From: Candidatus Enterococcus ferrettii
GTDB taxonomy: Bacteria > Bacillota > Bacilli > Lactobacillales > Enterococcaceae
DNA length: 27,277 nucleotides
Direction of reading: 5' to 3'
Assembly (NCBI RefSeq): GCF_017377655.1
Contig: NZ_JAFREL010000073.1
Coordinates: forward strand, 1 to 27,277
Part shown: piece after piece, positions 1 to 22,820 of the stretch
Numbering within the stretch: position 1 is the first letter of the stretch
Layout: each line of letters begins with the position of its first letter
The notes under the pieces: generated by a model
What the model saw: only the letters and a program-made list of their open reading frames with translations
Database searches by the model: none
What the model was told of the DNA's origin: nothing
Program-made: the position numbers and the translations under genes

Positions 1-3000
1 GTTGTTTCCTTATTTTTGTACGTATTAGTGATAGACGTACCTTTTACCTCAGACTCGTATTCTTTAACTGGGTCTTCCTTCACTGTGTAGTTGTAGGCTT
101 CACCTTGTTCATCGTATTTTGGCAAACCGATGAAACTATAAGCCCAGTTGCCTGACTCGTCTGCTTTAATTTCTTTTGCCGCATATTCCTTATCATTTTG
201 GAGTAAGCGAACAGTGATTGACTCTGGACGTGTTTTAAATTTATTTTCGTAGTCCTTCCAGATTTTCTTTCCACTAATTTCGGTGGTCTCTTTATTTTCG
301 TACGTATTAATAATCGTTGTGCCATCAACTTTAGTTTTATAATTTTTAACTGGATCTTCCTTAACGCTGTAGCTGTAAGCTACACCTTTTCCATCATATT
401 TCGGTAAATTAACAAAATGATATCTCCAATTATCAGCAGCATTTACTTCTTGCTGCTTAAACTCTTTACCATTTTGATACAAGCGAATCTTGATTGACTC
501 TGTACGGGTATTAAATTTGTTCTTATAATCTTGCCAGATTTTTTGTCCACTAATTTCGGTCGTTTCATTATTTTCATACCTATTAGTAATGGTTGTACCT
601 TCAACCTTCGTTTGGTAATCCTTCACTGGATCTTCTTTCACTGTATAGTTGTAGGCCTCACCTTTGGCATCGTATTTTGGCAAGTTTGTGAAACTGTACG
701 TCCAATTACCTGTTTTATCCGCTTGAACTTCTTTTTTACCAAACTCTTCGCCATTTTGATAAAGGTGGATATTAATTGATACTGGACGGGTTTTGAATTT
801 GTTGTCGTAATCCTTCCAGATTTTCTTCCCATTAATTTCTGTGGTCTCTTTGTTCTCATACGTATTAGTGATATTGTTGCCTTCAACCTTCGTTTGGTAA
901 TCCTTCACTGGATCTTCTTTCACTGTGTAGTTGTATGCTTCACCCTTGGCATCGTATTTTGGCAAGTTTGTGAAACTATACGACCAGTTACCTGTTTTAT
1001 CCGCTTGAACTTTTTTTGCATCAAATTCTTTATCATTTTGATAAAGGTGGATATTGATTGATGCTGGACGAGTTTTGAATTTATTGTCGTAATCCTTCCA
1101 GATTTTCTTCCCACTAATTTCGGTAGTCTCTTTGTTCTCGTACGTATTAGTGATATTGTTGCCTTCAACTTTAGTTTTATAATCCTTCACTGGATCTTCT
1201 TTTACTGTATAGTTGTAGGCCTCACCTTTATCGTCATATTTTGGCAAGTTCGTGAAACTGTACGTCCAATTACCTGTCTTGTCTGCTTGAATTTCTTTGG
1301 AATCAAATTCTTTGTCATTTTGGTAAAGGTGAATATCGATTGTCGCTGGACGAGTTTTGAATTTGTTGTCGTAGTCCTTCCAGATTTTCTTCCCACTAAT
1401 CTCGGTGGTCTCTTTGTTCTCATACGTATTAATAATCGTTGTGCCTTCAACTTTAGTTTCATAATCCTTCACTGGATCTTCTTTCACTGTGTAATTGTAT
1501 GCTTCACCCTTGTCATCATATTTTGGCAAGTTCGTGAAACTGTACGTCCAATTACCTGACTTATCCGCTTGAATTTCTTTGAAATCAAATTTTTTGTCAT
1601 TTTGGTAAAGGTGGATATTGATTGTTCCTGGACGAGTTTTGAATTTATTGTCGTAATCCTTCCAGATTTTCTTCCCACTAATTTCGGTGGTCTCTTTATT
1701 TTCATACGTATTAATGATCGTAGTCCCATCAACTTTAGTTTTATAATCCTTCACGGGATCTTCTTTTACTGTATAGTTGTAGGCCTCACCTTTATCGTCA
1801 TATTTTGGCAAGTTTTTAAAACTGTACATCCAATTACCTGTCTTATCAGGTTTAATTTCTTTTGTCTCGTACTCTTTGCCATCTTGGAACAGACGAATTT
1901 TGATTGATACTGTACGGGTATTAAACTTATTTTTATAGTCTTGCCAAATTTTTTGACCACTAATTTCTGTAAACTCTTTATTTTCATACGTATTGGTAAT
2001 TGTTGTTCCTTCAACCTTCGTTTCATAATCCTTCACGGGATCTTCTTTCACTGTGTAGTTGTAGGTCTCACCTTTGGCATCGTATTTTGGTAAGTTCGTG
2101 AAACTATACGACCAATTACCTGTTTTATCTGCTTGAACTTTTTTTGCATCAAATTCTTTGGCATTTTGGTAAAGATGAATATTGATTGTTGCTGGACGGG
2201 TGTTGAATTTGTTGTCGTAGTCCTTCCAGATTTTCTTCCCACTAATTTCTGTGGTCTCTTTGTTCTCGTACGTATTAGTGATATTGTTGCCTTCAACCTT
2301 CGTTTCATAATCCTTAACAGGATCTTCTTTCACTGTATAGTTGTAGGCTTCACCTTTGGCATCGTATTTTGGCAAGTTTGTGAAACTATACGACCAATTA
2401 CCTGTTTTATCTGCTTGAACTTTTTTTGCATCAAATTCTTTATCATTTTGATAAAGGTGAATATTGATTGACGCTGGACGGGTATTGAATTTGTTGTCGT
2501 AGTCCTTCCAAATCTTTTGTCCATTAATTTCCGTTGTTTCTTTATTTTCATACGTATTAGTAATGGTTGTACCTTCAACCTTCGTTTCGTAATCCTTAAC
2601 AGGATCTTCTTTCACTGTATAGTTGTAGATTTCACCCTTGTCATCGTATTTTGGCAAATTCATAAAACTATAGATCCAATTACCAGATGCATCTGCAATA
2701 ACGTTTTGCCTTGTGTATTCCATACCATTTTGATATAGGCGAATAGTAATCGATCTTGGACGGGTGTTAAATTTATTATCACTATCTTTCCAGATCTTAC
2801 GACCACTGATTTCTGTTGTTTCTTTGTTCTCATACGTGTTTGTAATATTTGTGCCTTCGATGCTAGTCTTATACCCCTTAACAGGATCTTCTTTTACTGT
2901 ATAGTTGTAAGCCTCACCTTTATTATCGTATTTTGTCAAGTTAGTAAAGCTATAAGTCCAACTACCTGACTTATCGGCTTGAACCTCTTTCGCATCAATT

Positions 3001-6000
3001 TCTTTGCCGTTTTGATAAAGATGAATCTTGATTGATACTGGACGGGTTTTGAATTTATTCTCGTAATCTTTCCAAACCTTTTGTCCGTTAATTTCTGTTG
3101 TTTCCTTATTTTCGTACGTATTAGTGATGGTGGTCCCATCAATTTTTGTGCTGTAATCCTTAATAGGATCTTCCTTTACCGTATAATTATAGGCAGCACC
3201 TTTTTCATCGAGCTTTGGCAAATTGGTGAAAGCATAGTTCCAGTTACCACTTGCATCAGCAATAACATTTTGCTGCGCATATTCTTTGCCGTTTTGATAC
3301 AAGCGGACAGTAATTGATCTTGGACGCGTATTTAATTTATTATCATTATCTTTCCAAATCTTTTGTCCACGTACTTCAGTAGGTTTATTCGTTTGCTTTT
3401 CATTTTCTACGAGTTGTTGAATGACTTTATTGTCTTTACTGGCCGTTACCTCAATAATGACTCCTTTAGCAAACTCTGGACTTATTTCATATCCTTCAGG
3501 CGCTTTTTCTTCTACTAAAAGATATTTCCCTTTCGTTAAATAAGCGAACAGAGCCATTCCGCCTTCTCCAGAGGAGGTTAATCGTTCAACAATTTTATCT
3601 GGGTCTTTCTTTTCTCCACGATACAAGGTAAAAACAGCATCTTTTAGTGGTGTCTGAGTGCCTTTTATCACCTTATAGACCTGAAGCTCCTCTGTTGTAC
3701 CTCTAATGATCCCCATACTTTTCGGAATGATCACTGGCACGGATACTTCTTTGGGCCGATCAACTATTACAAAATCGCTACCTGAAATTCTTACCCCATT
3801 CCCAACGCGAATTGTTTGTCCAGGAACGTCATTTTTTGAATAAATCACTTCTGCATCATAGGTTAATTCAAGTGCTTCGGTTAAATCATTTTTTAATTGA
3901 ATGTGAAAGCTGCGTTCTGTGTGCTCAATCGTATAATCAGTTCCAGCTTTCAATGCCTTCCCTTTATCTTTTCCAGAAGTATAAACCAGCTTGAGCGTAT
4001 CGAACTGCGCTTTGTTATTTATCCAATGATAATCATCAATCGCTACATTTTTCAGGTGAAATCTACTTTCGTTAATTGAAACTTTCCAATTGATAATATT
4101 AGGATCTTTAGGACTGACTTCGCCTTGCTTTTTAACTAATGCGCTTTGATCATTATTTATTTCAACACTGCCTTCAACAGCCGTCCGAGGTGTATTTTCA
4201 TCTTGATAATAGGCGACATTTTTTACTTGTTTGGTTATAATATCTTCCTTATTTTTCAAAACCGTACGGAAAACTAATTGAAATGGATTAGGATTCCCTA
4301 CAGCAAACGTTGCCTGAGTTTTATTTCCAGCCCTATCGTAGCTAGCCTGAGCATTATCAGTGGGCACATAAGCTGTGTTTTGAAATTTTTGTTCTAAAAC
4401 TGTAACAGAACCCTCAACATATGTTTGGTCAGCAGGGATTGAATCTTCTAAAAAATTTTGCTTATTGATCGGATGGCGTTCATTATTGACTCCAACGAAC
4501 CATTCTATTTCACCCGATTCTGGATGGTAAACACCGTACTTATTAGCACTGATCTTGACTTTTTGACGGTAGAATTTTTTCGAAGTGAAATCTAGTTTTT
4601 CTTGACCTTTCTGTACATAATGATACCAACATTCGTTTTGAAGTTCGGTATTATCATCAAAATGTGATTTATAGGTAATTACAAATCTATGATTTGTCTG
4701 TTCTGCTGAAAGATAGCGTATGTTGAACCCTATTATTTTTCCATTTGCTTGATTCAACTCTATTGAGTAGTCAACATTTTCTATCAACTGTCTATTCGTA
4801 GTTACATCCTTGACTATGATTGAATGATCTATCATATAGCCGCTGCTCAACTTGTCGCTTACGGTCCATGAGTTAAAATCACTATTATTTTTATTTACAT
4901 CAATGGTCCAATCTAACTCATTGCTTTTTTGGTCCCAGTAATAATCTTTTGAGAAGTCTGACTTAGTTATTTCTTCACCAGTTCCTGGGATTACCTTGTC
5001 GATCGTTTTATAATTTTTACCGTGATAGACAGTATTAAAAATTGTTGTATCTCCCGCCCCGCGCCTTTCTACTTTCATCTTGTACGTAACGACGATTGGC
5101 TGGTTAATATCTTGATTGAATTGTAGTGTAAAACCACGATCCTCTGCCTTTATTTCATAAGGAACCTGTGGTGAAACTTTTAAACTGCTGGGAATGAAGC
5201 GCTGATCATCACTAGGAACATCTTTAAAATAGGCTTGATCTCTTGGAATATGTCTACCTTTTGGATTAAAAATGACTTCCCAACTGACTTCGCTAGTGTC
5301 CTCATTAAAATCCCCAGCCTTTTTTGTGATATCCATGTGCTCTTCCAACGATGCGGCCGCTGTAGCAACCTCATCTGCTCGATTGCTTCCGCTTAAGGTA
5401 ATTTTATTGGTGATAGCGCCTTGACCTTCAAAGCTTATCGGTGTACTGATATACAATACATACGAATCTTCTATACTGGTAGGGAAATAAGCGGTACCAG
5501 AATCATCAAATGCGATCATCCCTGTTACTGGCTCAAGTTCAGTAATCCTCCCGTCAAAATCCACATTAGCTTTGCTCATTTTTGTAATATTGTATTGAGA
5601 GGCTACGCGTTTTCCTTCACTATTTGTTGTCTCTTCCGTCAGTTTAGGATTATGGACCAGATTCCGGTTGGGGTTAATAAGAACTTTCCAATCAATCACT
5701 GGTGTCCCATCTGCAGCATAACTAGTATTCACATACTCTTTTTGAATAAATGAATCAATACGAGTATTTACGAATATTTCATTGCCTTCTGTATTCGTTG
5801 ACCAAGGAATTCGGATAATATTCTTACCTGGTACAATGATCTTACGTTCATCCATTGTTACTGAAAATCTCAATCTACCTTCAACATTATCATGCTTTTG
5901 TACCTCAGAGTTAAAACTCATCGTTGCCCTGCCTGATGCATCTGAGCTGTAACTTCCATAAACCAGCCCATTAGCAGGATCTTTTAACTCTCCACTTTGT

Positions 6001-6930: not shown

Positions 6931-7776
6931 CTAGTCTAAATATTGAGTAGTATTACTGTTTAACCAAGAATATCCAAAACCCATTATTAATCCCCCGCCA
7001 ATGTAATTACCCAAAAGCGCAAAAAAGATATTACGTAAAATGTTTGAAGGAACAAGATCGTTTAAAGTTCCGTGAGAAACAAATAGAGCAAGTGAGAATG
7101 TTGGAAAATTAGCAATAACATGTTCATATCCTAAAAAGGCAAATATATAAATGATGAAGATCATTACTAAAATTTTTCCAGTATCCTCTTTTATTCGCAG
7201 CCCCATCAATACTGCAATATTCACTACAATATTTGCAAAAATTCCTTCCACAAATATTTGACTCGATGGCTTCAATAATTTGGCCTGGACACTGTCAAAG
7301 AAATAATTGTGACTTGCTAACTGTGCAAATGTTCCTGTATGCGATAATAAATAAGCACATACAATAGCCCCAACCAAATTAAAGAAAATACAAATGAAAA
7401 GTATTGACACAGCTGTCTTAAAGGATACGATCTTTCTATGAACAGCAATAGTCATATAAAGCATATTTGCCGTTCCTAATTCTCCATTTAGAAACAAAAT
7501 CATTACCAGCGACCAACTAAACATAAAAGCATATAAAAATTTCCCACTGTTAGACACAATGGACTCCATCTTCATTGCAACAGAAAATGCTATTGTGGTT
7601 CCCAGTGATAAAAATAAGCATGCATAACAAGAACGCACTGCATAACGGCAAAAACTAGTTTTAAATAGGTGATCCTTTTTTTCAATCCCTATTCGAATTT
7701 GCTGCATCATGGGTGATAACTCTGTTACAACACTAGTTTTCTCAAAAGTAGTTTTCTTACTTTCACAATCCATCAT
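6931..7776 (-). CDS. Formate/nitrite transporter (FNT/FocA-family) channel
   Basis: This 281-residue integral membrane protein has the FNT signature. The motif GYEHVIAN (His219) matches the conserved G(F/Y)EH.(V/I).N segment carrying the central pore histidine. The C-terminal GNYIGGGLIMGF matches the final FNT helix pattern. FNT proteins are pentameric channels passing formate and, in some members, lactate or nitrite, with protons. It is the last intact gene of the ldh-pflB-pflA operon, its start 13 bases after the pflA stop, so the likely role is export or re-import of formate made by PflB. The ribosome site GAGAGGA fits the first ATG (7776) or the second (7773). The roughly 45-residue cytoplasmic N-terminus before the first helix is somewhat long. 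I leave the symbol blank because substrate choice within the family cannot be read from sequence. Confidence 0.92.
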   Translation of the reverse strand: MMDCESKKTTFEKTSVVTELSPMMQQIRIGIEKKDHLFKTSFCRYAVRSCYACLFLSLGTTIAFSVAMKMESIVSNSGKFLYAFMFSWSLVMILFLNGELGTANMLYMTIAVHRKIVSFKTAVSILFICIFFNLVGAIVCAYLLSHTGTFAQLASHNYFFDSVQAKLLKPSSQIFVEGIFANIVVNIAVLMGLRIKEDTGKILVMIFIIYIFAFLGYEHVIANFPTFSLALFVSHGTLNDLVPSNILRNIFFALLGNYIGGGLIMGFGYSWLNSNTTQYLD

Positions 7777-7789
7777 AGATTCCTCTCTT

Positions 7790-8545
7790 TTAACTATAGC
7801 TATTACTTTGTAACAATTGTTCAGCTCGTTTTAAACAATTATCAGTAGGAGGTTCTATCCCAACTAACGGATATACCAGCCCTAACCTCTCCCACTTTTC
7901 TTTTCCCATAGTATGATATGGTAGTATCTCAACACGTTTTACATTGCTTAACCCTTGGATAAACAAGCTTAATCTTTTTAAATATGCCTCTTGATCATTA
8001 ATTTTAGGAATTAAAACATGACGTATCCATACTGGTTTACCCACCTCGGATAGGTAACTTGCTAACTCTAAAATTGAGTAATTTTGAAATCCAGTCAACT
8101 CTTTATGACAAGTTGTATCTATATGTTTAATGTCTAATAAGATCAAATCTGTGTACATCAACATTTTTTTGAATTTTGAAAAAAAAGGTTCAGCTTTTGT
8201 AAAGGGTTGACCACAAGTATCTAGAGTAATGTGAATTCCTGCTAATTTCGCTTTCTGGAAAAATTCTAGCAAGAAATCAAGTTGTATTAAAGGTTCTCCT
8301 CCACTAATGGTGATTCCGCCATTTTTCCCCCAATATTTTTTGTATTGCAATGCTTTGGCCAATAAATCATCTGATGTATAACTCATTGAATTGACATCAT
8401 TTATTTTCCAAGTATCAGGATTATGACAAAACTGACAGCGCATTGGACATCCTTGCATAAAAACTACAAAACGAACACCTGGACCATCAACAGCTCCAAA
8501 ACTTTCTATTGAATGTACTCTCCCCATTGCTTCTGTTTTTTTCAT
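7790..8545 (-). CDS. pflA: Pyruvate formate-lyase activating enzyme (radical SAM)
   Basis: This 251-residue protein is the usual PflA length. It carries the radical SAM cluster motif CxxxCxxC (Cys33, Cys37, Cys40) in QGCPMRCQFCHNP, the SGGEPL motif that helps bind S-adenosylmethionine, and the family segment LILLDIKHID. PflA uses a 4Fe-4S cluster and S-adenosylmethionine to abstract hydrogen from the glycine of PflB, switching the lyase on under anaerobic conditions. The start at 8545 follows a strong GGAGGG site directly after the T-run of an intrinsic terminator, so its expression probably depends on read-through from pflB. The stop is 13 bases before the FNT gene start, consistent with one transcript. 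Confidence 0.97.
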   Translation of the reverse strand: MKKTEAMGRVHSIESFGAVDGPGVRFVVFMQGCPMRCQFCHNPDTWKINDVNSMSYTSDDLLAKALQYKKYWGKNGGITISGGEPLIQLDFLLEFFQKAKLAGIHITLDTCGQPFTKAEPFFSKFKKMLMYTDLILLDIKHIDTTCHKELTGFQNYSILELASYLSEVGKPVWIRHVLIPKINDQEAYLKRLSLFIQGLSNVKRVEILPYHTMGKEKWERLGLVYPLVGIEPPTDNCLKRAEQLLQSNSYS

Positions 8546-8560
8546 TAGATTATTCCCTCC

Positions 8561-8596
8561 AATAAAAAATGGACGGATTGAAAGTTAAATCCGCCC
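8561..8596 (-). terminator. Intra-operon terminator/attenuator between pflB and pflA
   Basis: On the minus strand, GGGCGGATT (8596-8588) pairs with AATCCGTCC (8579-8571): nine pairs including one G-U, with an 8-nt loop, followed directly by ATTTTTTATT (8570-8561). The pflA ribosome site (complement of 8555-8560) comes straight after. This is a complete intrinsic terminator inside the operon and probably leaks. It would give much more PflB than PflA, which suits an enzyme and its catalytic activase. Confidence 0.8.
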
Positions 8597-8605
8597 ACTT
8601 AACCA

Positions 8606-10861
8606 TTACATTTTTTTGTGGAAAGTGCGGCTAATGACATCTTGTTGTTGTTCACGTGTTAAGTCTATAAATTTAACCGCATAGCCTGATACTCGAATAG
8701 TAAAATTCGCGTATTCTTCTTTTTCTGGATGTTCCATAGCATCCATTAGTTTTTCTTTTCCAAAAACATTCACGTTTATATGATGTGCTCCTTGATCAAA
8801 ATATCCATCTAAAACATTCGAAAGATTTTCAATTTTTTCTCCCTGACTATGACCTAGTGCATCAGGATTAATACTTTGCGTATTAGAGATACCGTCAAGT
8901 GCATAGGAATACGGTAGCTTAGTTACTGAGTTCAAAGAGGCTAATAGGCCGTTTTGTTCCGCTCTATAAGAAGGATTTGCTCCTGGCGATAAAGGTTCTC
9001 CCGCTTTACGTCCATCTGGTAAATCTCCTGTGGCTTTTCCATAAACAACATTTGAAGTAATGGTCAATATAGACGTAGTCGGCTCCGAATCTCTATAAGT
9101 TTTATAATGCTTAATTTTGCTCATAAAATTTTTCAACAGCTCTACCGCAATTTCGTCTGCTCGATCATCATCATTGCCATACCTCGGGAAATCCCCTTCT
9201 ATTTTATAGGAAACAACTAATCCGTCATCATCTCTAATTGGATAAACTTCAGCGTATTTTATTGCTGCTAAGGAGTCAACAACATGAGAGAATCCAGCAA
9301 TTCCTGTTGCAAATGTCCGTTTTACGTTGGTGTCCATCAGAGCTAATTCTGCTGCTTCGTAATAGTACTTATCATGCATATAATGAATACAATTTAATGT
9401 ATTCACATATATCCCAGCTAACCATTCCATCATACTATCGAATTTTTTAACAACTACTTCGTAATCCAGCATGTCATCGCTTTCTATTCCACGATAAGGT
9501 GGCGCAACCTGAGCTTTTGTATTTTCATCAATACCACCATTAATCGCGTATAATAAGCATTTTGCTAAATTCGCTCGGGCACCAAAAAACTGCATTTCTT
9601 TCCCTGTTTGTGTTGCTGAAACACAACAGCAAATTGCATAATCATCTAGCCAAATTGGACGCATCACATCGTCATTCTCATATTGAACAGAAGACGTATC
9701 AATAGATATTTTAGCAGCATATTCTTTAAACCCTTTTGGCAAACGAGATGAATATAAGATTGTTAAATTCGGCTCTGGTGAAGGTCCCATATTTTCAAGA
9801 GTATGCAAGAAACGGAAATCACTTTTTGTAACCAATGTTCGGCCATCGATTCCCATCCCTGCTATTACTAATGTTGCCCAGATGGGGTCACCTGAGAAAA
9901 GTTCATTATAGGAAGGGACTCTAGCAAATTTCACCATTCTTAATTTCATTACTAAGTGGTCAATCAATTCTTGAGCTTCTTCCTCAGTCAAAACACCTTT
10001 TTCCAAATCACGTTGAATATAAATATCCAGAAATACTGAAATTCTGCCAATTGACATCGCAGCTCCATTTTGTTCCTTAATAGCTGCAAGATACCCAAAG
10101 TAGAGCCATTGCACAGCCTCATGAGCATTTTTCGCAGGACGAGAAATATCGTAACCATAGATAACAGCCATTTCTTTCATTCTCTTCAAAGCATTATATT
10201 GATTAGTAATTTCTTCTCGTAAACGTATATCATCTTCAGTAAACTGTCCGTTGCCACAATTCTCGTAATCCTTAACTTTCTGTTCCATCAGATAATCAAT
10301 ACCATATAAGGCTACACGTCGATAGTCTCCTACAATTCGACCGCGACCATACGTGTCAGGCAAACCGGTGATAATTTTATTTCGTCGAGCAGAACGAATT
10401 TCTGACGAATAGACATCAAAAACTCCTTGATTATGAGTTTTATGAAATTTTGTGAATATTTCATTTAATTTTATATTTGGCTCATAACCATAGCTCCTTA
10501 AAGACTCTTCAGCCATATTAATACCACCATAAGGCATAAAGGCCCTTTTTAATGGTTTATCGGTTTGGATTCCTACAACTTTTTCTTTTCCCTTCAACTC
10601 TTCGCAGATATAACCTGGTCCATATGCATCCGCAGCAGATACAACATCGACCTCCATATCTAAGACTCCACCATTTGCACGTTCTTTCTTTTGCAATTCT
10701 TGCAGCTTACTCCATAATTGGTTTGTGGATTCTGTAGGATTAGTTAAAAATTCAGCTCTCCCTTCATAAGGAGTATAATTTGATTGAATAAAATCTCTCG
10801 TGTTGATTTCATTTTTCCAGCTATCTCCTTGAAATCCATGCCATGCTATATTGTTATCCAT
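8606..10861 (-). CDS. pflB: Formate C-acetyltransferase (pyruvate formate-lyase)
   Basis: This 751-residue glycyl radical enzyme converts pyruvate and CoA into acetyl-CoA and formate in the cytoplasm. The active-site cysteine pair is in [14 protein letters not shown] (Cys412-Cys413, preceded by an extra Cys411), equivalent to Cys418-Cys419 of E. coli PFL. The glycyl radical loop is RVSGYAV with Gly726, 25 residues from the C-terminus, as in the family. The length is near full size and no domain is missing. The start ATG at 10861 lies 19 bases after the ldh stop; the ribosome site (CCAAGAGAA) is weak, so translation may be coupled to ldh. PFL is inactive and oxygen-sensitive without PflA, which is the next gene. 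Confidence 0.98.
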
Positions 10862-10880: not shown

Positions 10881-11837
10881 TCATAGTATTTTTTGAGGCG
10901 ATACGCATAAAGGATTGTTTTGACGTAATACATCAGCAGAGTGAGCAAATTGATTTAACTCATCTGGTGTTAAATTCGGCGTAATCGTCTCCAGTACACC
11001 TCTTCGTCCGATCACACACGGAACACCTGCAAAGACATCCTCCTGACCATATTCACCTTCTAACAATGTGGAAGTCGTCAAAACTGCATGCTCATCCTTT
11101 AGAATTGCTTTACTAATTCTTGATAAAGCCATGGCAATACCATAATAAGTAGCTCCTTTAGCTTGTATAATCTTATAAGCAGCATCTCTTGTTCGCTTAT
11201 AGATTCCCTCTAGTTCTTCATTTGATATCTCAAGTCTTTCTCTAACATCAGATAAATTCAAACCTGCAATTTTTACAGTTGACCATGGAACAAATTCTGA
11301 GTCACCATGTTCACCAAAAACATTGGCTAAAATATCTTGTGGTGCCAAGTCTAAACGTCGGCTTAGTTGATATCTTAACCTTGCTGTATCTAAGGTTGTT
11401 CCTGATCCAATTACACGTTTTTTTGGAAAATTAGAATATTTCCAAACAGCATAAGAAATGATATCTACGGGGTTTGAAGCGATTAAGAATATACCGTCAA
11501 AACCTGATTGAATGACTTCTTCTGTAATCTTCTGTGCAATTTTAATGTTGGTATTAATTAAGTCAAGACGCGTCTGTCCCACTTTCTGTGGTACTCCTGC
11601 ACAAATACAAACAATATCAGCATTCTTACAATCCGAATAACTTCCACGCCAAACATCAACATTCGTAGAGAAATTCGGTAATCCATCTTGAATATCCGCT
11701 ACGTCAGCATTGACTTTGGCTTCATTTAAATCAATTAACACTAGTTCGTCACAGATATTTTGGTTAACAACTGAAAAAGCATAGCTTGCTCCTACCGATC
11801 CCGTACCTATTAAGATAATTCTCTTATTTGCTGCCAT
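10881..11837 (-). CDS. ldh: L-lactate dehydrogenase
   Basis: This 318-residue NAD-dependent dehydrogenase reduces pyruvate to L-lactate. It has the Rossmann motif GTGSVG (11-16), Asp36 ending the second strand (VLID), the substrate arginine of the mobile loop GQTR (Arg90), LDTAR (Asp150 and Arg153) and the catalytic histidine in GEHGDSE (His177). These match the family's Arg109, Asp168, Arg171 and His195. ASNPVD is also present. The start at 11837 follows AGGTGG. It is the first gene of the ldh-pflB-pflA-FNT operon, so lactate- and formate-forming routes share a promoter. Lactobacillales often carry several ldh genes; this may be a secondary, anaerobically regulated copy rather than the main glycolytic one, which is inference. 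Confidence 0.96.
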   Translation of the reverse strand: MAANKRIILIGTGSVGASYAFSVVNQNICDELVLIDLNEAKVNADVADIQDGLPNFSTNVDVWRGSYSDCKNADIVCICAGVPQKVGQTRLDLINTNIKIAQKITEEVIQSGFDGIFLIASNPVDIISYAVWKYSNFPKKRVIGSGTTLDTARLRYQLSRRLDLAPQDILANVFGEHGDSEFVPWSTVKIAGLNLSDVRERLEISNEELEGIYKRTRDAAYKIIQAKGATYYGIAMALSRISKAILKDEHAVLTTSTLLEGEYGQEDVFAGVPCVIGRRGVLETITPNLTPDELNQFAHSADVLRQNNPLCVSPQKIL

Positions 11838-11866: not shown

Positions 11867-11880
11867 AGGAAGCGCTTCCT
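11867..11880. promoter_or_regulatory. Perfect palindrome at the ldh transcription start, cre-like (CcpA) site
   Basis: AGGAAGCGCTTCCT is a perfect 14-bp palindrome. It keeps the core of the catabolite-responsive element (AA.CG..), with A and T instead of T and A at the outermost positions. It spans about +1 to +14 of the predicted ldh transcript, where a bound repressor would block transcription. Confidence 0.55.
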
Positions 11881-11885
11881 CTACT

Positions 11886-11915
11886 GTTATAGTACACCTC
11901 TCAGTTTTCTGTCAG
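11886..11915 (-). promoter_or_regulatory. Predicted promoter of the ldh-pflB-pflA-FNT operon
   Basis: On the minus strand, the -35 is CTGACA (complement of 11910-11915, 5/6 match) and the -10 is TATAAC (complement of 11886-11891, 5/6), with an 18-bp spacer. An overlapping alternative -10, TACTAT (11894-11889), lies 23 bp from the PrfA-type box, the spacing typical of PrfA-activated promoters. The -35 directly abuts that box. Confidence 0.6.
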
Positions 11916-11933
11916 CATTAACATTTGTTAATG
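11916..11933. promoter_or_regulatory. Perfect PrfA-type box upstream of the ldh promoter
   Basis: CATTAACATTTGTTAATG is an 18-bp perfect palindrome. Its inner 14 bases (11918-11931), TTAACATTTGTTAA, match the Listeria PrfA box consensus TTAACANNTGTTAA exactly, including the TT centre I recall for the hly/plcA box. Its centre lies about 45 bp upstream of the predicted ldh start when TATAAC is used as -10. The neighbouring divergent gene encodes a PrfA/Ers-like regulator. Confidence 0.75.
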
Positions 11934-12071: not shown

Positions 12072-12106
12072 TTTACATTTGTTATTGAGAAAGCGCTATC
12101 TATAAT
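12072..12106 (+). promoter_or_regulatory. Promoter of the PrfA-like regulator with overlapping PrfA-like and cre-like sites
   Basis: The -35 is TTGTTA (12080-12085) and the -10 is TATAAT (12101-12106), with a 15-bp spacer between hexamers. TTTACATTTGTTAT (12072-12085) matches the PrfA box at 12 of 14 positions and covers the -35. AGAAAGCGCTATCT (12088-12101) is a cre-like sequence lying between -35 and -10. Both placements suit repression rather than activation. Confidence 0.55.
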
Positions 12107-12151: not shown

Positions 12152-12835
12152 ATGTCTAAGCAAATGTTAACTAACTATTTTTCTTCATATGTCGATAAAA
12201 AAAAGGAAAAAAGTATCACCGCTTGTAAACACGAGTACATTGCTTTTGAAGAACATAGAACTTCTTCTATTTATGTTTTGCATCGGGGCATTCTAAAACT
12301 AAGTACTTTTTTAAAAGATGGAAAGGAATTTAACATAAAATTAGTAGCTCCTGGGGAAATTGTTACTCTTTTAGAAGATGAGACCACTTCCATTGTTTCC
12401 ATGCCCTTTACCATTTGTTCTCTCAGCGAATCTGCTGAAATTTATTTATTGGATCGCTTAAGTTTCTGGCAAGATGTTCGCTCTGACGTTCTTTTAAACG
12501 AATATGTTCGACTTTATTATCGAAAAAATTTGAACATTCAAATACGGAAAACATGTGCTTTAACAAGTAACGGAAAGCTAAGTGCAGTATGTAATTTGCT
12601 TTATGAATTACAAAATTTTTTTGGAAAGGATTCGGTGAACGGACGTTTAATTGATCTTGAATTATCAAATGAAGAATTAGGAAAATTTTGTGGTATTCAT
12701 AATGCAAGCAGCTTTAATCGTATTTTGAGACAACTAAAGGATGCTAAAGTGATAGAAGTTAGTTCAAATAAAATATTGATCTGTAGTTTGGAACGGCTGA
12801 AAAATATGGGTGGGAGTATTAATATCAATTTTTAG
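12152..12835 (+). CDS. Crp/Fnr-family transcriptional regulator, PrfA/Ers-like
   Basis: The protein has 227 residues from the ATG at 12152, chosen because it follows AGGAGTG while the in-frame ATG at 12110 sits on the predicted transcription start. An N-terminal cyclic-nucleotide-binding-type beta-roll (about 20-120) is followed by a Crp-type helix-turn-helix (about 171-205). Against PrfA as I recall it, the C-terminal half aligns clearly: NGKLxxxC, ELGxxxGI, then SSxxxRIxxxLKxxKVI, including the Ser-Ser and Arg of the recognition helix. It has six cysteines. It is divergent from the ldh-pfl operon, and the gap holds a perfect PrfA box, so it is the prime candidate regulator of that operon and of itself. 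Its ligand is unknown; the glycine-rich cAMP phosphate-binding loop of Crp is not evident. Confidence 0.88.
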   Translation: MSKQMLTNYFSSYVDKKKEKSITACKHEYIAFEEHRTSSIYVLHRGILKLSTFLKDGKEFNIKLVAPGEIVTLLEDETTSIVSMPFTICSLSESAEIYLLDRLSFWQDVRSDVLLNEYVRLYYRKNLNIQIRKTCALTSNGKLSAVCNLLYELQNFFGKDSVNGRLIDLELSNEELGKFCGIHNASSFNRILRQLKDAKVIEVSSNKILICSLERLKNMGGSININF

Positions 12836-14201: not shown

Positions 14202-17200
14202 TTACTTTCTCGTTAAACTCTTTCTTCTATAAAGATAGTACATTACGAGTGCACTCACCAGCATGAGTCCTAGATACACATAAATTGTCTTTTTTTCACC
14301 CGTGCTAGGTAATTTTTTATTTGATGGCGGCGTCAATGGATTTCCTGACACTTTTGAATCTTCACTCTTCACAGATACTTGACTTGATCCACCATGAGAA
14401 GTTCCTGCAGGTCCTTCTCCCTTAAATGAGGCAACATTTAAAATTGACTTTTCTTTACTAGTGTCTGTTAGAATCACCGTAAACAGAATCTCCCAAGTTT
14501 CACCACCACTCAGCTCTGCCCGAGTATAATTGAAGACATTCTCATGCCAATGAATACTGTCCGACAACTGCTTACCATTTAAGCTAGTTGAATTTGGAAC
14601 ATATGTTAACTCTGCTGGTAATTGATCTGTTACCCGCATGTTAGTTGCTGTCCCAGTCCCTTCATTTCCATTTGTAACAAGTAAACGGTAGACCAGTTTC
14701 TCCTGCGGTTTACTTGTTAATTTATCGGATACTGTTGTGAAGGTTGAATCTTCTATTTTTTTTACACTCTTTTCGAGCTTAGGCTCTGGAGGTGTTACAA
14801 CTTTAATTGATATCTTACCTTCAATCGGAGGATAAGGTTCATCAGTTGGTGTAAAACCCTCAACAACTGCTCTATTTTCGATGATCCCTGCTTGAGTCGT
14901 AGTTACCCTAAACTCAATGACCGTTGTGTCTCCACCTTCGAAGGGTGATGGAAGTTTATAAGTGAGGGCAGAATCTTCCCAAATACTATCATCAACGGTT
15001 TTCCCGTCTATTTTTGTAGTCCCCGCTACGTAACTTAAACCCGCTGGGAGCTTATCTGTGACTGTCCCATTCAGCAGGTCCCCAGCTAATTTTTTATTGC
15101 TTACCGTCAATCGATAAGTGACTTCTTCTCCTTGTTTAATTAGTCTATCGTCAGGTTTCGCTACCGTTTTTTCGAAAGTGATTTCCGGACTTTTCATGAC
15201 GATTGCTTGGTCTTTAATCTCAGGTAATTCTGTCAGTTCTGTAGGATTCGTTACATTTCGAACCTGACCGTTAGCGTAGGCTATATTTTCTATTGTCCCT
15301 GCTGCTTGATTAGTTACCTGGACCTTGAATTTTATCGTTTTGCTTTCTCCAGTTTTTAACAAGCCAACATTTAAAAATAGCTTCTGCCCTTCGATACAAG
15401 AATCATCATAAGCTGCACTATCTATCATCAATGAGTTTTTTTGGTAAGTTAAACCGATGGGTATCTCATCCCAGATTGTTACGTTTTGAACCTCTGATGG
15501 AGCTGTTTCTGTGTTTGTAACAACAATCTCATAAAACAAGAAATCTTCGTGTGCAACCAGTTGTTTTTCGTAGTCATTACCTGCTGCATCTAGTACATTT
15601 TTCTCAATAGCAAGTTTTCCTGGTCCTCTGGCAACAGTCACGGTAGTGCTTCCCTTTTTGTCATAAGGCGTTTTTTCAGCATCCAGTCCTCTGACATGAG
15701 CTTCATTAATCAACTCAATTAATTCAGCTTCTTTGGTTGCATAACGAACTTTCACCTCATAAGTAATTTCAACTTTAGTTCCCCCAGCTACAGCACCTTG
15801 ATCATCAGTATCCATAGTGTAGCTAAAGGCATTTCCTATCCAAATCCCAGCATCAGCCGCTTGTTTCCCATTTATCTTGGTCGATCCCTTAACGTATTCT
15901 AAACCATCAGGTAAGGTATCAGTTACCGTTCCTTCAAATAGATCCCCCGTTTGTTCCTTGACTCCGTTAGTGACTACTAGCTTATAGGTAATAATCATAT
16001 CTTTTGTAACTGTTTTGTCATCTAGTGACTTTCCAGTCTGGTCAAAAACAGATTTTTTAATGGCAGGATCAGGTAGTTTCTTCAAGAAAACGGGTGGTGT
16101 CTTATCCCAGGGAGGTGTTTCACTTCCAAATTCTGGCGGATTCTCCCCGGTTGCTTCGGCTACATTTGGAATTACCTTAGCTGAATCAGAATTTACCCTG
16201 ACCTTGAAAGCGATTTCTTTGGATTCATTTTGTTTTAGCGTTCCTGCTTTTATTTTAATCGTTCGAGTAGCTGTGTCATATTCTGCAGTTACTTCTTCTG
16301 GGAGCGGTAAAAATTCCACAAAAGTAAGATCTTTATCCAAAATGTCAGTTACCTCAACGTTTGTAACCGAGGTACTGCGATCAGGGTGTTTCTCATCAAT
16401 GTTTCCAACAACCAAAGTATACGTAACTTCTTGATCAGATTTAACCATTTGAACGTCTGCTTTTTTTGTTAACTTCAAAACCCCTGGAGCCTCAACAGGT
16501 AGTACTGTTGCTGTATCTTTCCCTCTGCCTGCCTCCAGCTCCTTCTCACCATCTTTGTATTTTCCTGTTACTGTGGCTTCATTAACAAGTTTCTGAGGCT
16601 TTGCAATTGTACTTAGCTCATGGGAGTCAACCATTACATTGTAAACAATTCGAATATCTCCCCCAGCTTCTAAAGTAAAGCCTTCGTAAGTGAAAGTATG
16701 ATTATTGGGATCCACAACCAATGTTGCATTGGAATCTACAGGATAAATAGTCGGACCTTCGCTCGTATAAGCTAATCCATCAGGCAAGGTATCTGTAACT
16801 TGACCTTTAATTACTTTAGCTCCATTGTCATTGCGAACAACAACAATATACGGTACAGTCGCTCCATTAGTCGCTGTATATTCCTTTTGTCCTTCTTCAC
16901 CAACGGATTTTTCAATGGTTAAATTTGGAGCAATCGAGTTGGTTGTTGTTGAGGATCCACCACTGGGTTCATCTGGGCCATCAGGTGTTTTATTAATCTT
17001 ACCTTCAGCTTTTGCTGCATTAATTAAAGTCCCATTAGCTGCTTTAGTAACCGTAACATCAAAGGAAATCAGGACTTCCGTTTTCCCAGGGATATCTCCT
17101 AAGTCCAATTTGAAACTGTTTGAATCTGTAGAAAAAGTCAGATTATGGGCAGCAGTTACCGGTACGTCATTGACAGTAAAGGAAGCTTCATCTATTTTCA

Positions 17201-20200
17201 AACCATCAGGTACCAGGTCCTCTACTTGAACCTCTTTGACAACCGATTCTGCCGCAGCACTATTTTTTGCCAAAATAGTATAGGTTACCTTATCTCCTAT
17301 TGAAACCTTCTGCTGATTGATACTTTCGAATCCTGTTTTAGCAAAGACATCTTTTTCAACTTCTAGCTTTCCTGGAGGATTAATTACTTCAATTGCAGCA
17401 GAAGCTCCAGCCTTCGTGTAATACTCAATATCCTTAGTTGGATCAGAACCTGAAACTTCAGCTTGATTCACTAGATGTTTTTTTCCAATAACCTCCACAT
17501 TTGCTACTGCATTATACGTTAATTCAAAGGTCATTCCTAAAGTCATAGGACTCAATAAGTACTGAGCTAAATCTAAACTTAAGTGGTCTTTCTTCTCGCC
17601 TTTATTCCAAATATAGTCGTCTTTAATTATTTGATCGGATAAAATACGATCAGCTGCATCCTTTACGACTAAACGTGTAGTTGTAGGTTCAGCAGTAACG
17701 CCTTCAGGTAGTTGGTCCGTTAGAAGACCATGATACATGGCACCTGATCCTGGATTTAATTGACCCTTAATAGTATAGGTAAACGGCGTATCTGGAAAGA
17801 CTTTGTCTGCACTAACATTTTTTTCTAACGTAATGTCTGGTTTAACTTTGACAGTCACTTGATTTGTTTCGTGTATCTCTTTTTTATCATCCCATACCCA
17901 GCCCAAGTTAGTTTCAGCTTTACGACCTTGGGTTTCAACATTCGCAACATTCTTCAAGACACCAATTGCTGTCTCGCCAACCTGTACATCTATTTCAATC
18001 TCCAGTTTTCTTGCTTCTATATTTTCCTTAGAGATATAAAGTACTTGATCAGGTTTGACGGTTAATAACCCCGTCTCGTCTAACTCATAATCCCAGCTTT
18101 CAACCTCTCTTCCATTTAAACGAATCCTCAAATTCTTCTTCTCGCTGATAATCAAACCATTTGGCAATTGATCCGTAAAACTAGTTACTTTAATTTGACC
18201 AGTTTCTTCTATTTTTTGAGTATCTGCAGGTTCGGCTGTCAGAATAATTTTGTATCTGAGCCACTCTCCAACGTTGACCTCTTTTCCATTTGCTTCAACA
18301 GCTTTATCATCCAGCATTTGATAAACTTCCTTTTTCGGCGTTGCCAATACAGCGTTTCTAGCATAAGCCTTTACCGTTTTAACACCAGGTTGTATGTTTG
18401 AACCTATTCCGTTACTGTCTTTACTTTGTGCAGCAACAGAAAGGTCATAGCTAGCATTCGGATTTCCTGCTCCCGGCGTAGGCTCCAATAGTTCCCATTG
18501 TGCTTCCATACAAAATTTATAGCCTTTTTGTAAAGGTTCTTTCAATTTATACTCATAATTCATCGTATAACCTGAACGTTCATCGTTGACATCCACTATT
18601 TTCCAGATATCGCTACCGGGAATACTTACTTCCTCAATTTTTTCTCCTTTGTCATCCAACATATATAAAACAACATCACCAATGAGTTTCATATTAAAAG
18701 CAGTTGCTTCGCCTAGTCCATGAAAGAAATGGACACTTACAGAATCATTTCCTGCGGCATATCCTATTGTTTGGGTAGATTTCACCAAATCTCCGAAGTT
18801 ATTGACTTGTTTTGATATTTTTAGATCGTTGGTTATATCTGGATATTTTTCTTTAAGAATAACTGTGTATGGTTGCGCACTATATCCTGATGTGACACAA
18901 AAGTTTCCGGCGCCTTTGATGGACGAATCTTTGTAGTCATATTCCTGCGAATTATAGTAAAGCTTTGACTCATCTATTATTATTTTGAAGTTTTTATCTG
19001 GTAATCCTATTGGAATATTCTCATTCTCTGGATCATAAGTATACTGAGTAAGAAGTTCATTTGTCTCGGGGTCAACAATCGAAAACTTTACTTTGTCATC
19101 GTCTACACGTTGGCCATTAATTCTTTGAAATGAAACAAGGAGTGGTCGCGGCGCTACTGCTTTAGTAGTTACTGTCTCATTAAACAACTCAGTCTTCTTA
19201 TTTATTGTTACATTTACTGCTTGCTTAAAATAATTAAGACCATCCTCTTGGTTAAAATAGTTATCAAAATTGACTGATGTACTATAGTCTAAGAAATTAA
19301 CAACAAACTCCAACGTATAAATACCGGCAGTTGGTTTTTTTATTCCGTAAGAATTCATGGAGCCAAAAGAAACCGTTGTTTGGATGTTATTAGGATCAAT
19401 CAACGTAGCACTTTTATTCAAACCTCCCCAAGGATCTGATTGCTCAGGAACCTCGAAAACAATGGTTTCATCACTGTCTTCTGCGACAGCCAATCTGACT
19501 ATGTATTTAATTCCTTTTCCTTGATAATACTGTTGATAGTCCGTAATTTCTGTATCAGTTCCCCAAGTATTCTCTTTTAAATCCCATACACTTGTCGTAA
19601 CACTAACATTGTAATTCTCACTGGTAAAAGGAATATTCTCTTCATACTTCACAGCAGGTGTCCCCTCTGAGTCATTCGTTGGTTCGATATCATCGGGGGC
19701 TACTGAGTCCAACTCTTTCATTGGTGTTTTAACCATTTCTTCAGCAACCGACACGGTTACTGGTAGGGAAACATTCCGTGAAGAATTTACCTGGATTGTG
19801 TAAGTTCCCGTTTGAGGAGCAGTCACTGCCAGCCAAACAAGATTGTTCACGGCTTCTTTGATTACTGGTTCCATTACAGCAGCTTGAAAATTTTCGCTGC
19901 TATTGTTAGTTGGATTTGCATTAGTCCAACTAACTATCACATTGGCTGCTTCTTGACTATAAGCAACATTTGCATTGGTAATCTTATTCGCTTCTGTCGT
20001 TTGATTCTGTTCTAAGGACAAGCCTTCTAATGATATTTGAACATTTGTATCTTCACTGTCTGTAGAGCGAAGACCTATTAACTTTGTTTCATTTGCTTTC
20101 ATTTCCAGCTGACTAATCTCTGCTTCTGACTCATCGACAAACATTAATCTGATATCGACTGTCTTAGCTTCTGCAATCGTTCCAATTACAGCAGGAACGA

Positions 20201-20279
20201 GCATTTGTACTAAAAGAGTTGACAACATCACTATTCTGAAAATTTTTTCTATTGATAGCACTGGATTCTTCTTATGCAT
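14202..20279 (-). CDS. Giant LPXTG-anchored DUF11/isopeptide-repeat surface protein
   Basis: The protein has 2025 residues. Residues 1-38 are a signal peptide ending AEA before KTVD. The C-terminus has LPSTG (1990-1994), a hydrophobic segment and a basic tail, a sortase A anchor. About residues 40-630 form a non-repeated head. From about 641 come nine modules of roughly 140-150 residues (near 641, 810, 968, 1115, 1263, 1403, 1551, 1693, 1831) of the DUF11 type. Most show EK(N/S/D/T)V at the start, a (V/T)(T/E)D.LP.GL strand and (I/L/V).N.A at the end. Paired Lys and Asn with a central acidic residue suggest one internal Lys-Asn isopeptide bond per module. It is the last gene of a likely minus-strand operon (gap of 26 bases from the gene before), beside a divergent Mga-like regulator. 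The role is probably adhesion or cell-surface structure; no ligand can be assigned. Confidence 0.94.
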   Translation of the reverse strand: MHKKNPVLSIEKIFRIVMLSTLLVQMLVPAVIGTIAEAKTVDIRLMFVDESEAEISQLEMKANETKLIGLRSTDSEDTNVQISLEGLSLEQNQTTEANKITNANVAYSQEAANVIVSWTNANPTNNSSENFQAAVMEPVIKEAVNNLVWLAVTAPQTGTYTIQVNSSRNVSLPVTVSVAEEMVKTPMKELDSVAPDDIEPTNDSEGTPAVKYEENIPFTSENYNVSVTTSVWDLKENTWGTDTEITDYQQYYQGKGIKYIVRLAVAEDSDETIVFEVPEQSDPWGGLNKSATLIDPNNIQTTVSFGSMNSYGIKKPTAGIYTLEFVVNFLDYSTSVNFDNYFNQEDGLNYFKQAVNVTINKKTELFNETVTTKAVAPRPLLVSFQRINGQRVDDDKVKFSIVDPETNELLTQYTYDPENENIPIGLPDKNFKIIIDESKLYYNSQEYDYKDSSIKGAGNFCVTSGYSAQPYTVILKEKYPDITNDLKISKQVNNFGDLVKSTQTIGYAAGNDSVSVHFFHGLGEATAFNMKLIGDVVLYMLDDKGEKIEEVSIPGSDIWKIVDVNDERSGYTMNYEYKLKEPLQKGYKFCMEAQWELLEPTPGAGNPNASYDLSVAAQSKDSNGIGSNIQPGVKTVKAYARNAVLATPKKEVYQMLDDKAVEANGKEVNVGEWLRYKIILTAEPADTQKIEETGQIKVTSFTDQLPNGLIISEKKNLRIRLNGREVESWDYELDETGLLTVKPDQVLYISKENIEARKLEIEIDVQVGETAIGVLKNVANVETQGRKAETNLGWVWDDKKEIHETNQVTVKVKPDITLEKNVSADKVFPDTPFTYTIKGQLNPGSGAMYHGLLTDQLPEGVTAEPTTTRLVVKDAADRILSDQIIKDDYIWNKGEKKDHLSLDLAQYLLSPMTLGMTFELTYNAVANVEVIGKKHLVNQAEVSGSDPTKDIEYYTKAGASAAIEVINPPGKLEVEKDVFAKTGFESINQQKVSIGDKVTYTILAKNSAAAESVVKEVQVEDLVPDGLKIDEASFTVNDVPVTAAHNLTFSTDSNSFKLDLGDIPGKTEVLISFDVTVTKAANGTLINAAKAEGKINKTPDGPDEPSGGSSTTTNSIAPNLTIEKSVGEEGQKEYTATNGATVPYIVVVRNDNGAKVIKGQVTDTLPDGLAYTSEGPTIYPVDSNATLVVDPNNHTFTYEGFTLEAGGDIRIVYNVMVDSHELSTIAKPQKLVNEATVTGKYKDGEKELEAGRGKDTATVLPVEAPGVLKLTKKADVQMVKSDQEVTYTLVVGNIDEKHPDRSTSVTNVEVTDILDKDLTFVEFLPLPEEVTAEYDTATRTIKIKAGTLKQNESKEIAFKVRVNSDSAKVIPNVAEATGENPPEFGSETPPWDKTPPVFLKKLPDPAIKKSVFDQTGKSLDDKTVTKDMIITYKLVVTNGVKEQTGDLFEGTVTDTLPDGLEYVKGSTKINGKQAADAGIWIGNAFSYTMDTDDQGAVAGGTKVEITYEVKVRYATKEAELIELINEAHVRGLDAEKTPYDKKGSTTVTVARGPGKLAIEKNVLDAAGNDYEKQLVAHEDFLFYEIVVTNTETAPSEVQNVTIWDEIPIGLTYQKNSLMIDSAAYDDSCIEGQKLFLNVGLLKTGESKTIKFKVQVTNQAAGTIENIAYANGQVRNVTNPTELTELPEIKDQAIVMKSPEITFEKTVAKPDDRLIKQGEEVTYRLTVSNKKLAGDLLNGTVTDKLPAGLSYVAGTTKIDGKTVDDSIWEDSALTYKLPSPFEGGDTTVIEFRVTTTQAGIIENRAVVEGFTPTDEPYPPIEGKISIKVVTPPEPKLEKSVKKIEDSTFTTVSDKLTSKPQEKLVYRLLVTNGNEGTGTATNMRVTDQLPAELTYVPNSTSLNGKQLSDSIHWHENVFNYTRAELSGGETWEILFTVILTDTSKEKSILNVASFKGEGPAGTSHGGSSQVSVKSEDSKVSGNPLTPPSNKKLPSTGEKKTIYVYLGLMLVSALVMYYLYRRKSLTRK

Positions 20280-21183: not shown

Positions 21184-22668
21184 ATGAAACAAACACTGCC
21201 TCATTTTTCTTTTATATCCAGCGACGAACAGTTAACGATTGAATTGTCCACTTTTTTATCAGAAAAAAATCGCTATGTTCCAATTGCTGAATTGACTGAT
21301 TCTTTTTTGGTTTCACCAGTAAAGATCAGAGAAATTTTAAAAGTTTTAGAAGATGATCTTGGGTCTTTTCAAAATGATGCATTCTTTTTGGATGTTTCCA
21401 AAAAGAAAGGCGCCTTTTTATCCATCGATGATGACCACAACTTGAAAGAATTTATTTCTTTTATTATTTTACGCAGCCCATTAATCCAATTATTTACCGC
21501 AATCAGCTTCCAAAAATTTGTTTCTGTTACTAACTATGCTCAGGAAAATTTTTTAAGCGAATCCACTGTCCGTCGTTCCTTAAAACGAATACGTAGTATT
21601 ATCACGCCTTACGAAATAACAATTACCAAAAATAGTTATTTGCTGTCAGGTTCTGAGACACAAATTCGGTATTTTTTGTTTCTCTTTTTTTGGCGTATTT
21701 ATCGTGGTATTACTTGGCCTTTTCCCTCCGTTGATATAGACCAAATCATTACTTCGACAAACAATATTCTGCAAAAAAAGATGATTCAGTTTGATACACC
21801 TATTGAAAAAAAACGTTTCATGTTTTTTCTTGCTGTCTGTCGTTTGCGAATCAGCAACAAAAACCATATTAAAGAAACTGACTTACAGGTTAGTCCCATG
21901 ACAGAAATAGAGAAATTATTTATAGAAAATTTTCCTACAAGAAACATCAAGCTAGGACTCTCCTTAGCGGAGAAAAGATTCTTTTTCCAATTTTGTAAGG
22001 GTCTCGGCTGGCTATCTAATTTGACGGAACAGTTTGAATTGGAAAAACTACAGCAAACTTCTGAATATCAAGCAACAGAAGATTTTTTCAACAGGTTTCA
22101 AAAGCAATTTTTTTTAATTCCTACTGAAAAGAAATTAGCTGCAAACCTATTTATCTTCCGTGTTCATACAGTTGCTCGTTTATTTAAGAATTTCCACACG
22201 GATATGAATGGTTTTTTTTATAACCACTACTTGATTAACTATTATCCTGAACTAACTGGTAAATTAAGTTACTTAATCGCCGATTTGATTTCAAAAGATC
22301 AACCCCTCTTTAAGCAAGAACAATTTCTGTTGATTCATTATTTAATGTTAGTTGCCTCCGTAGATGAAATCTGTCGTTATGAGAAAACCATCTATTTAGT
22401 TTATGACTCTACCCTGGTGCCTTTGCTGCAAGAAGAACAAATTAATCGTATCTATAGCTACTTTAAAGATTTTTTCCATCTGGATATTTCTCTACCAGCC
22501 GCCGTTAATGCTCCTGATAAAATCAATTTCGTGCTGACTTCAATACCTTTACCAGAATATAGTGCTCAATATCCTAACGCTAAAATACTGACAATTAGTC
22601 GAAATTTGAAAGTAAGTGATTTAATGAAACTTGAGAGCAATATTTCTGAGTTCATTCAACCAAAGTAG
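21184..22668 (+). CDS. Mga-like transcriptional regulator
   Basis: This 494-residue protein belongs to the Mga/AtxA-like family. An N-terminal winged helix (about 10-65) is followed by the Mga helix-turn-helix (about 100-160), with FLSESTVRRSLKRIRSI as its recognition region and the family's GSETQIRYFLFLFFW segment after it. A helical PRD-like middle and a C-terminal EIIB-like fold (INFVLTSIPLPE) complete the layout. Such regulators activate surface-protein genes in streptococci and enterococci and may sense sugar transport by PRD phosphorylation. The start follows AAAGGAGG. The divergent neighbour is the operon encoding the 2025-residue surface protein, its most likely target. Confidence 0.88.
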   Translation: MKQTLPHFSFISSDEQLTIELSTFLSEKNRYVPIAELTDSFLVSPVKIREILKVLEDDLGSFQNDAFFLDVSKKKGAFLSIDDDHNLKEFISFIILRSPLIQLFTAISFQKFVSVTNYAQENFLSESTVRRSLKRIRSIITPYEITITKNSYLLSGSETQIRYFLFLFFWRIYRGITWPFPSVDIDQIITSTNNILQKKMIQFDTPIEKKRFMFFLAVCRLRISNKNHIKETDLQVSPMTEIEKLFIENFPTRNIKLGLSLAEKRFFFQFCKGLGWLSNLTEQFELEKLQQTSEYQATEDFFNRFQKQFFLIPTEKKLAANLFIFRVHTVARLFKNFHTDMNGFFYNHYLINYYPELTGKLSYLIADLISKDQPLFKQEQFLLIHYLMLVASVDEICRYEKTIYLVYDSTLVPLLQEEQINRIYSYFKDFFHLDISLPAAVNAPDKINFVLTSIPLPEYSAQYPNAKILTISRNLKVSDLMKLESNISEFIQPK

Positions 22669-22710
22669 CCTTTACCTCATCAAATTCATCCTATATAAAT
22701 TACTTTTAAG

Positions 22711-22738
22711 CCTGTTAAGAATATTTAACAGGTTTTTT
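22711..22738 (+). terminator. Intrinsic terminator after the first Mga-like gene
   Basis: CCTGTTAA (22711-22718) pairs perfectly with TTAACAGG (22725-22732) around a 6-nt loop and is followed by six T residues. It serves the plus strand only; the opposite side has no T-run. Confidence 0.85.
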
Positions 22739-22820
22739 GGTACTTTTTTATGCATTGATCCATTCAAACTCTGCTAAAGAATATTTCATACTTTTTGTTC
22801 TATAGTTTGGTTAATCTTCA

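Follow-up and report, generated by a model that had tools for sequence, protein, structure and literature searches.

The regulator described here is a relative of LarR, Ers and PrfA. LarR, which we take to be the name of the larA-linked regulators, responds to L-lactate. Ers of Enterococcus faecalis is a PrfA-like Crp/Fnr protein of enterococci that acts on metabolic genes. It has been linked to glycerol metabolism and EF0082 (PMC5043555), it activates EF0082-3 and EF0104-6 according to an excerpt of PMC2824692, and its box is given as AACATTTGTTG in an excerpt of PMC10380289. For PrfA of Listeria monocytogenes, excerpts of PMC5359189 name S184 and R188 as residues contacting bases and Q61, Y63, F67, K122, Y126, Y154 and W224 as residues binding glutathione. 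The PrfA box consensus is given in excerpts of the same paper and of PMC3443378, the latter placing the centre of PrfA boxes at -41.5.

The window, i.e., the whole stretch of 27,277 nucleotides of Candidatus Enterococcus ferrettii DNA that was analysed, contains a Crp/Fnr-superfamily regulator gene of this kind (12152-12835, plus strand), divergent from an accessory L-lactate dehydrogenase gene, ldh (10881-11837, minus strand), across 314 bp. The locus resembles the Ers system in that a PrfA-like Crp/Fnr protein of an enterococcus is associated with metabolic genes; however, the Ers-like genes linked to an MFS-type gene encode proteins 37-45% identical to the window protein, which adjoins ldh. 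It has in common with PrfA an exact box, both base-contacting residues and a box that would be centred near -42 if TACTAT is the ldh -10, but overall similarity to PrfA is weak (49.9 bits), the glutathione pocket is not kept and the target here is an LDH operon. LarR-type regulators belong to the same family and are likewise divergent from a gene of lactate metabolism (larA, lactate racemase), whereas they are 33-38% identical to the window protein and form a separate group. We consider it probable that the divergent regulator has its operator in the palindrome upstream of ldh, as part of a local switch under catabolite repression by which an accessory LDH-PFL branch is activated.

The box and the divergent regulator

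The PrfA/Ers-type box TTAACATTTGTTAA (11918-11931, no strand assigned) is the core of an 18-bp palindrome at 11916-11933. It matches the PrfA box consensus TTAACANNTGTTAA with 0 mismatches, is the sole exact match in the window and meets 12 of the 12 fixed bases of the PrfA box sequence tTAACanntGTtAa. The initial annotation had claimed both an exact match and an 18-bp palindrome; the match is indeed exact, and the palindrome is present but imperfect, with 8 of 9 pairs matched. Ten of the 11 bases of the Ers box are shared as well, the last base being A. When the 314-bp intergenic region was shuffled with dinucleotides preserved, an exact box appeared in only 3 of 20,000 shuffles; once 2 mismatches were allowed, a box was obtained in 1,210 of 20,000 (about 6%).

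Exact sites are rare in the genome as a whole (2 in 5.40 Mb). The second (C66:118038) falls within a 471-aa ORF, and the intergenic box is the only exact site found outside ORFs. Allowing one mismatch, 37 sites were counted against 51 for the reversed control pattern; the 36 outside the window comprised 27 within ORFs of at least 90 aa and 9 between ORFs. Counts for the Ers-type 11-mer were similar (20 sites vs 17). A genome-wide regulon defined by the box was rejected on these numbers, and the lineage-wide PrfA-type switch proposed in the initial annotation found no backing in them, as the genome-wide search showed no excess of boxes. A significant intergenic site with no sign of a wide regulon fits a local switch.

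Near-matches were seen at two other places. An intergenic TGAACATTTGTTAATG at C117:23424 lies about 150 bp upstream of a gene for a 414-aa protein that looks NAD-binding by eye, making it a candidate second target. Upstream of another ldh of the same genome (C24:15267) stands TTAAGACTTGTTAA, which recurs upstream of the matching ldh in a genus-mate (genome G005, L071:1276) where a match to the regulator is absent; this near-box is probably unrelated.

The regulator scores above the cut-off of PF13545 and just below that of PF00027 (26.8 vs 27.5 bits), and its best PDB match is PrfA. The counterparts of PrfA S184 and R188 in the pairwise comparison are S186 and R190, with PrfA positions counted from G145; in an alignment of 17 sequences including the window's own, R190 is kept in all 17 and S186 in 16. 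The glutathione pocket has fared otherwise. A single residue of the seven is kept (K122, as K125), five are changed (Q61 to K, Y63 to V, F67 to E, Y126 to I and Y154 to F) and W224 lies beyond the aligned part. Glutathione as the ligand by analogy with PrfA is thus unsupported, and the ligand probably differs.

The palindrome could instead be the operator of another protein, such as Rex, an Fnr/ArcR-type regulator or a second Crp/Fnr protein of the genome. Rex or Fnr-type proteins often control ldh and pfl genes in other bacteria, and the genome does carry other Crp-type HTH proteins. Against this, a search of the window allowing 3 mismatches gave no Rex-type site, one of the ldh-regulator intergenic region allowing 2 mismatches gave no TGTGA-N6-TCACA site, and the genome yielded no second relative of the divergent regulator at E<=0.001, where the one match was the protein itself. 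We regard this alternative as very improbable. Another Crp-type HTH match in the genome, at C108:28406, contains one in-frame TAG.

The regulator's own candidate promoter (TTGTTA-16-TATAAT, 12079-12106, plus strand) was recognised by consensus match only, and promoter-like sites are about as frequent as expected (29 found vs 27.8). Its -35 is overlapped by a weak second box, TTTACATTTGTTAT (12072-12085, no strand assigned, 2 mismatches), and its -10 is abutted by a cre-like AGAAAGCGCTATCT (12088-12101, no strand assigned). The second box is a possible autorepression site, though of a quality reached by chance in about 6% of shuffles. The exact box might serve this promoter, although it lies 169 bp from the regulator's -10.

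Layout of the ldh promoter

On the minus strand, the candidate -35 of ldh, CTGACA (11915-11910), lies 2 bp from the box, and the candidate -10 is either TACTAT (11894-11889) or TATAAC (11891-11886), at 23 and 26 bp from the box, respectively. The initial annotation had placed all of these elements correctly. The -10 region, GTGTACTATAACAGTA, is identical in Vagococcus vulneris, in which the gap from the box to TACTAT is 22 bp. In four aligned ldh promoters the order is palindrome, -10-like sequence and cre-like site. Spacing is not universal, since in Metaclostridioides mangenotii 35 bp separate the box from TATACT in the alignment. With TATAAC-like hexamers as the reference, the gaps become 26, 25 and 35, so that they differ by about one helical turn. 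If transcription is assumed to start 7 nt past the -10, the box is centred at about -42 with TACTAT and at about -45 with TATAAC. The former value, given by the 22-23 bp gap, fits activation.

More widely, -10-like hexamers (at least 5 of 6 bases) peak at 20 and 22 bp from the box on the side of the divergent gene (8 and 5 of 29 regulator loci, respectively), and again at 22 bp on the regulator side (5 of 29 loci, partly related streptococci). With peaks on both sides of the box, these hexamers do not point in one direction only. In streptococcal relatives (L095-L099), TATATTATACCA (4 loci) or TATATTTTACCA (1 locus) is located 20 bp from the box on the divergent-gene side.

CTGACA is a usable -35, so the ldh promoter may not need an activator. 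The regulator could bind the box and repress ldh-pfl by covering the -35 region until a metabolite released it. The 2-bp distance between box and -35 would suit such an arrangement, as would the second, weak box, whose overlap with the candidate -35 of the regulator gene is a position of the repression type. However, the relatives for which data exist activate (PrfA, and Ers on EF0082-3 and EF0104-6 in the excerpt of PMC2824692), and the 22-23 bp spacing to TACTAT suits activation. In the alignment of ldh promoters, CTGACA is not conserved in V. vulneris or M. mangenotii, which would be expected of activator-dependent promoters. Repression seems to us rather unlikely. Under activation, which we prefer, a dimer of the regulator would bind TTAACATTTGTTAA through a PrfA-like recognition helix beside a poor -35, and would recruit RNA polymerase to the ldh promoter in the manner of class II activation.

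Just past the ldh -10 and before the start of the gene lies a perfect 14-bp cre-like palindrome, AGGAAGCGCTTCCT (11867-11880, no strand assigned), a candidate CcpA site of which the initial annotation made no mention. In a loose form, cre-like sequences are frequent by chance alone (136 found vs 145 expected), and in the symmetric form less so (4 found vs 1.1 expected). The cre core AAGCGCTT is present between the -10 and the ldh start in the window, in V. vulneris and in two strains of M. mangenotii. CcpA bound here would block the ldh promoter as long as a preferred sugar was available, and the operon would accordingly be expected to run at low sugar flux.

Conservation of the regulator-ldh pair and the regulator family

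The strongest evidence for the putative regulator-ldh switch comes from conservation. Divergent regulator and ldh genes with the palindrome between them were found in V. vulneris and in two M. mangenotii strains. In V. vulneris, LDH and regulator are 70 and 59% identical to those of the window, and the palindrome, TTAGCAAATGCTAA, carries one change per arm with its symmetry kept. The M. mangenotii pairs (LDH 68-69%, regulator 44%) have exact boxes. Two V. vulneris loci (L091, and L101 of genome G207) encode the same proteins, so the pair is known from three lineages and four sequences. Loss of the palindrome in relatives with the same gene order had been named at the outset as evidence against a role for it; in the relatives found with that order it is kept. 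The alternative that the palindrome is a chance or non-regulatory feature could draw on the lack of genome-wide enrichment (37 vs 51 sites; 20 vs 17 for the 11-mer). The rarity of an exact box in shuffles, the presence of the palindrome in all three lineages found with the gene pair and the paired changes in V. vulneris make it hardly credible.

Neither in V. vulneris nor in M. mangenotii was the pair found linked to pfl. The conserved unit is therefore the regulator with ldh, in place of the ldh-pfl unit that the initial annotation had put under regulation. LDH and regulator entries suggest that the two also co-occur in E. gilvus and E. devriesei, adjacency not being implied; in either species both entries give one value for the longest contig (329,187 and 2,777,134, respectively). 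A first contig scan gave no further ldh-regulator pairs, and among 29 genomes of the family of G207 a search for the LDH clade yielded G207 alone again. The third genome of the order with such an LDH (L102) shows neither a regulator in its 1.5-kb flanks nor a box within 330 nt upstream. A viral scan detected one relative of the regulator (41% identical), without ldh. No report of a link between this regulator and ldh or pfl was found in open-licence PMC papers.

The regulator itself belongs to a large family. Matches at E<=0.001 were obtained in 78 of 147 genomes searched, the own included, mostly at 33-45% identity with some weak ones down to 19%. At 28 of 39 other loci, the 400 nt preceding the regulator gene contain a box with 2 mismatches or fewer, compared with about 6% of shuffles of the window's intergenic region. 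These 39 loci include V. vulneris and M. mangenotii and are related rather than independent; 10 had no box and 1 was a duplicate. Relatives with a box come mostly from the host's own family or order. Together with the likeness to the E. faecalis Ers box, this makes the box a family trait and not the mark of Listeria that the term "Listeria-type" had implied.

Gene neighbours differ among these relatives. The divergent strand codes for one and the same MFS-type N-terminus in 22 of 29 loci (L004-L032). Judged by eye, 3 of these 29 have a larA-like divergent gene, and another two relatives adjoin annotated larA genes. In the two plasmid copies of the larA-regulator arrangement, the intergenic boxes are no better than 2 mismatches. 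Closer relatives of the window protein (57-70% identical) were found in E. gilvus, E. devriesei, V. vulneris and an E. faecalis entry, and none as close at E<=1e-55 in the other 104 genomes of the host's family. In a genus-mate (G008, locus L016), a pflB gene and the gene of an Ers-like regulator converge; the neighbour of that regulator in the tree (L027) has no adjoining pflB match.

In a tree of 48 proteins (midpoint root, with a program warning of long branches), the window protein, its close relatives and the V. vulneris and M. mangenotii proteins lie on one side of a 100/99 branch, across from the MFS-linked Ers-like proteins, a group that presumably contains Ers itself. The window protein is thus not placed as an Ers orthologue. 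The larA-linked proteins are a group of their own (100/100); the window regulator, with ldh as its neighbour, stands outside it. The label "ldh-linked" does not by itself mark one clade (3 changes; 97 of 500 shuffles as low), because close relatives lacking a neighbour label lie inside: the ldh side includes 7 such relatives.

The ldh-pfl operon and its possible signal

Downstream of ldh, which scores above the cut-offs of NF000824 and TIGR01771, three genes follow on the minus strand: pflB for pyruvate formate-lyase (8606-10861; TIGR01255 above cut-off) after 19 bp, pflA for its activating enzyme (7790-8545; TIGR02493 above cut-off) after another 60 bp, and a focA-like formate/nitrite transporter gene (6931-7776; PF01226 above cut-off) after 13 bp. 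NCBIfam FocA models score the last below their own cut-offs. The operon strand carries a terminator-like hairpin (8567-8600) with 13 pairs and a T tail in the gap from pflB to pflA, which may lower pflA; terminator-like sites in the stretch number 5 vs 3.4 expected. Activation by the regulator would turn on ldh-pflB-pflA-focA. The core of the initial annotation is supported: a fermentation operon beside which stand a box of the PrfA family and a divergent gene resembling PrfA/Ers.

Its assignment to "central" pyruvate metabolism did not hold. Besides the window genes, the genome encodes two more members of the LDH family (48 and 30% identical to the window LDH) and two more close PFLs (82 and 65%); the loci of these two PFLs showed no box at up to 2 mismatches. 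Across 60 genomes, the own included, no other LDH exceeds 49% identity to that of the window. These additional copies and the low identity give the window genes the look of an accessory set. The window LDH is 98% identical to that of Enterococcus sp. AZ072. Its clade (E<=1e-105) is represented in 3 of 395 genomes of the order, the own included, and in 1 of 398 genomes of the phylum, again the own; the enzyme looks like an accessory LDH of scattered distribution.

The sequence of the enzyme also departs from that of other LDHs at one position. His188 (Bacillus stearothermophilus numbering) presumably binds fructose-1,6-bisphosphate in allosteric LDHs. It is H in the best-matching LDH loci of all 29 other genomes, which are likely to be housekeeping LDHs, and in the C24 LDH of the genome itself, whereas L, V, T, F, S, N or E occupies it in 19 of 20 sequences that include the window's own. 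The sole exception with H (P0029) is the most distant of the 20 (47% identical). An LDH without the fructose-1,6-bisphosphate-binding histidine should stay active when that metabolite is low, and such independence would suit low-sugar conditions.

Could the operon consume lactate? LDH would convert lactate to pyruvate, PFL and FocA would yield acetyl-CoA and exported formate, and the regulator would answer lactate, as its relative LarR does. Relatives of the regulator in the same tree adjoin larA lactate racemase genes, and the missing histidine and the cre-like site fit work at low sugar. But LDH normally makes lactate and lactate use would need an electron sink for the NADH, the larA-linked regulators are a separate group, and pfl is unlinked in V. 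vulneris and M. mangenotii. We hold such a lactate-sensing, lactate-consuming switch to be possible but doubtful.

The locus suggests that a PrfA-type switch also serves ordinary fermentation. In a speculative extension, the PrfA/Ers/LarR branch would at root consist of switches at the lactate/pyruvate node, with a near-constant TTAACA-N2-TGTTAA operator and a swapped partner (ldh, larA or an MFS carrier); Listeria virulence would be a late re-use, and the regulator of the ldh group would sense lactate or a close metabolite, feeding back on an LDH independent of fructose-1,6-bisphosphate. We offer this tentatively, as one of the less likely readings. The arrangement is a simple two-gene system with one regulator, one conserved target and one operator, and its occurrence, operator included, in Enterococcaceae, Vagococcus and a genus of Peptostreptococcaceae means that it can reveal the metabolic signal of the branch. 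That signal is relevant to the question of how virulence genes in Listeria came under a metabolic switch. Nothing pointing to colonisation was found, and the earlier proposal that the switch is shared between metabolism and colonisation gained no supporting evidence.

Elsewhere in the window, a 282-bp unit is repeated in tandem at positions 67-3231 (11.2 copies, 80% match); the minus strand has ORFs there, and the array looks like the repeats of a large surface protein. Positions 14202-20279 and 21184-24317 hold a minus-strand gene for a 2025-aa protein, repeat-rich by eye, and close to it a pair of genes of Mga type (AcpB/EbpR/MafR kind), one scoring above and one below the model cut-off.
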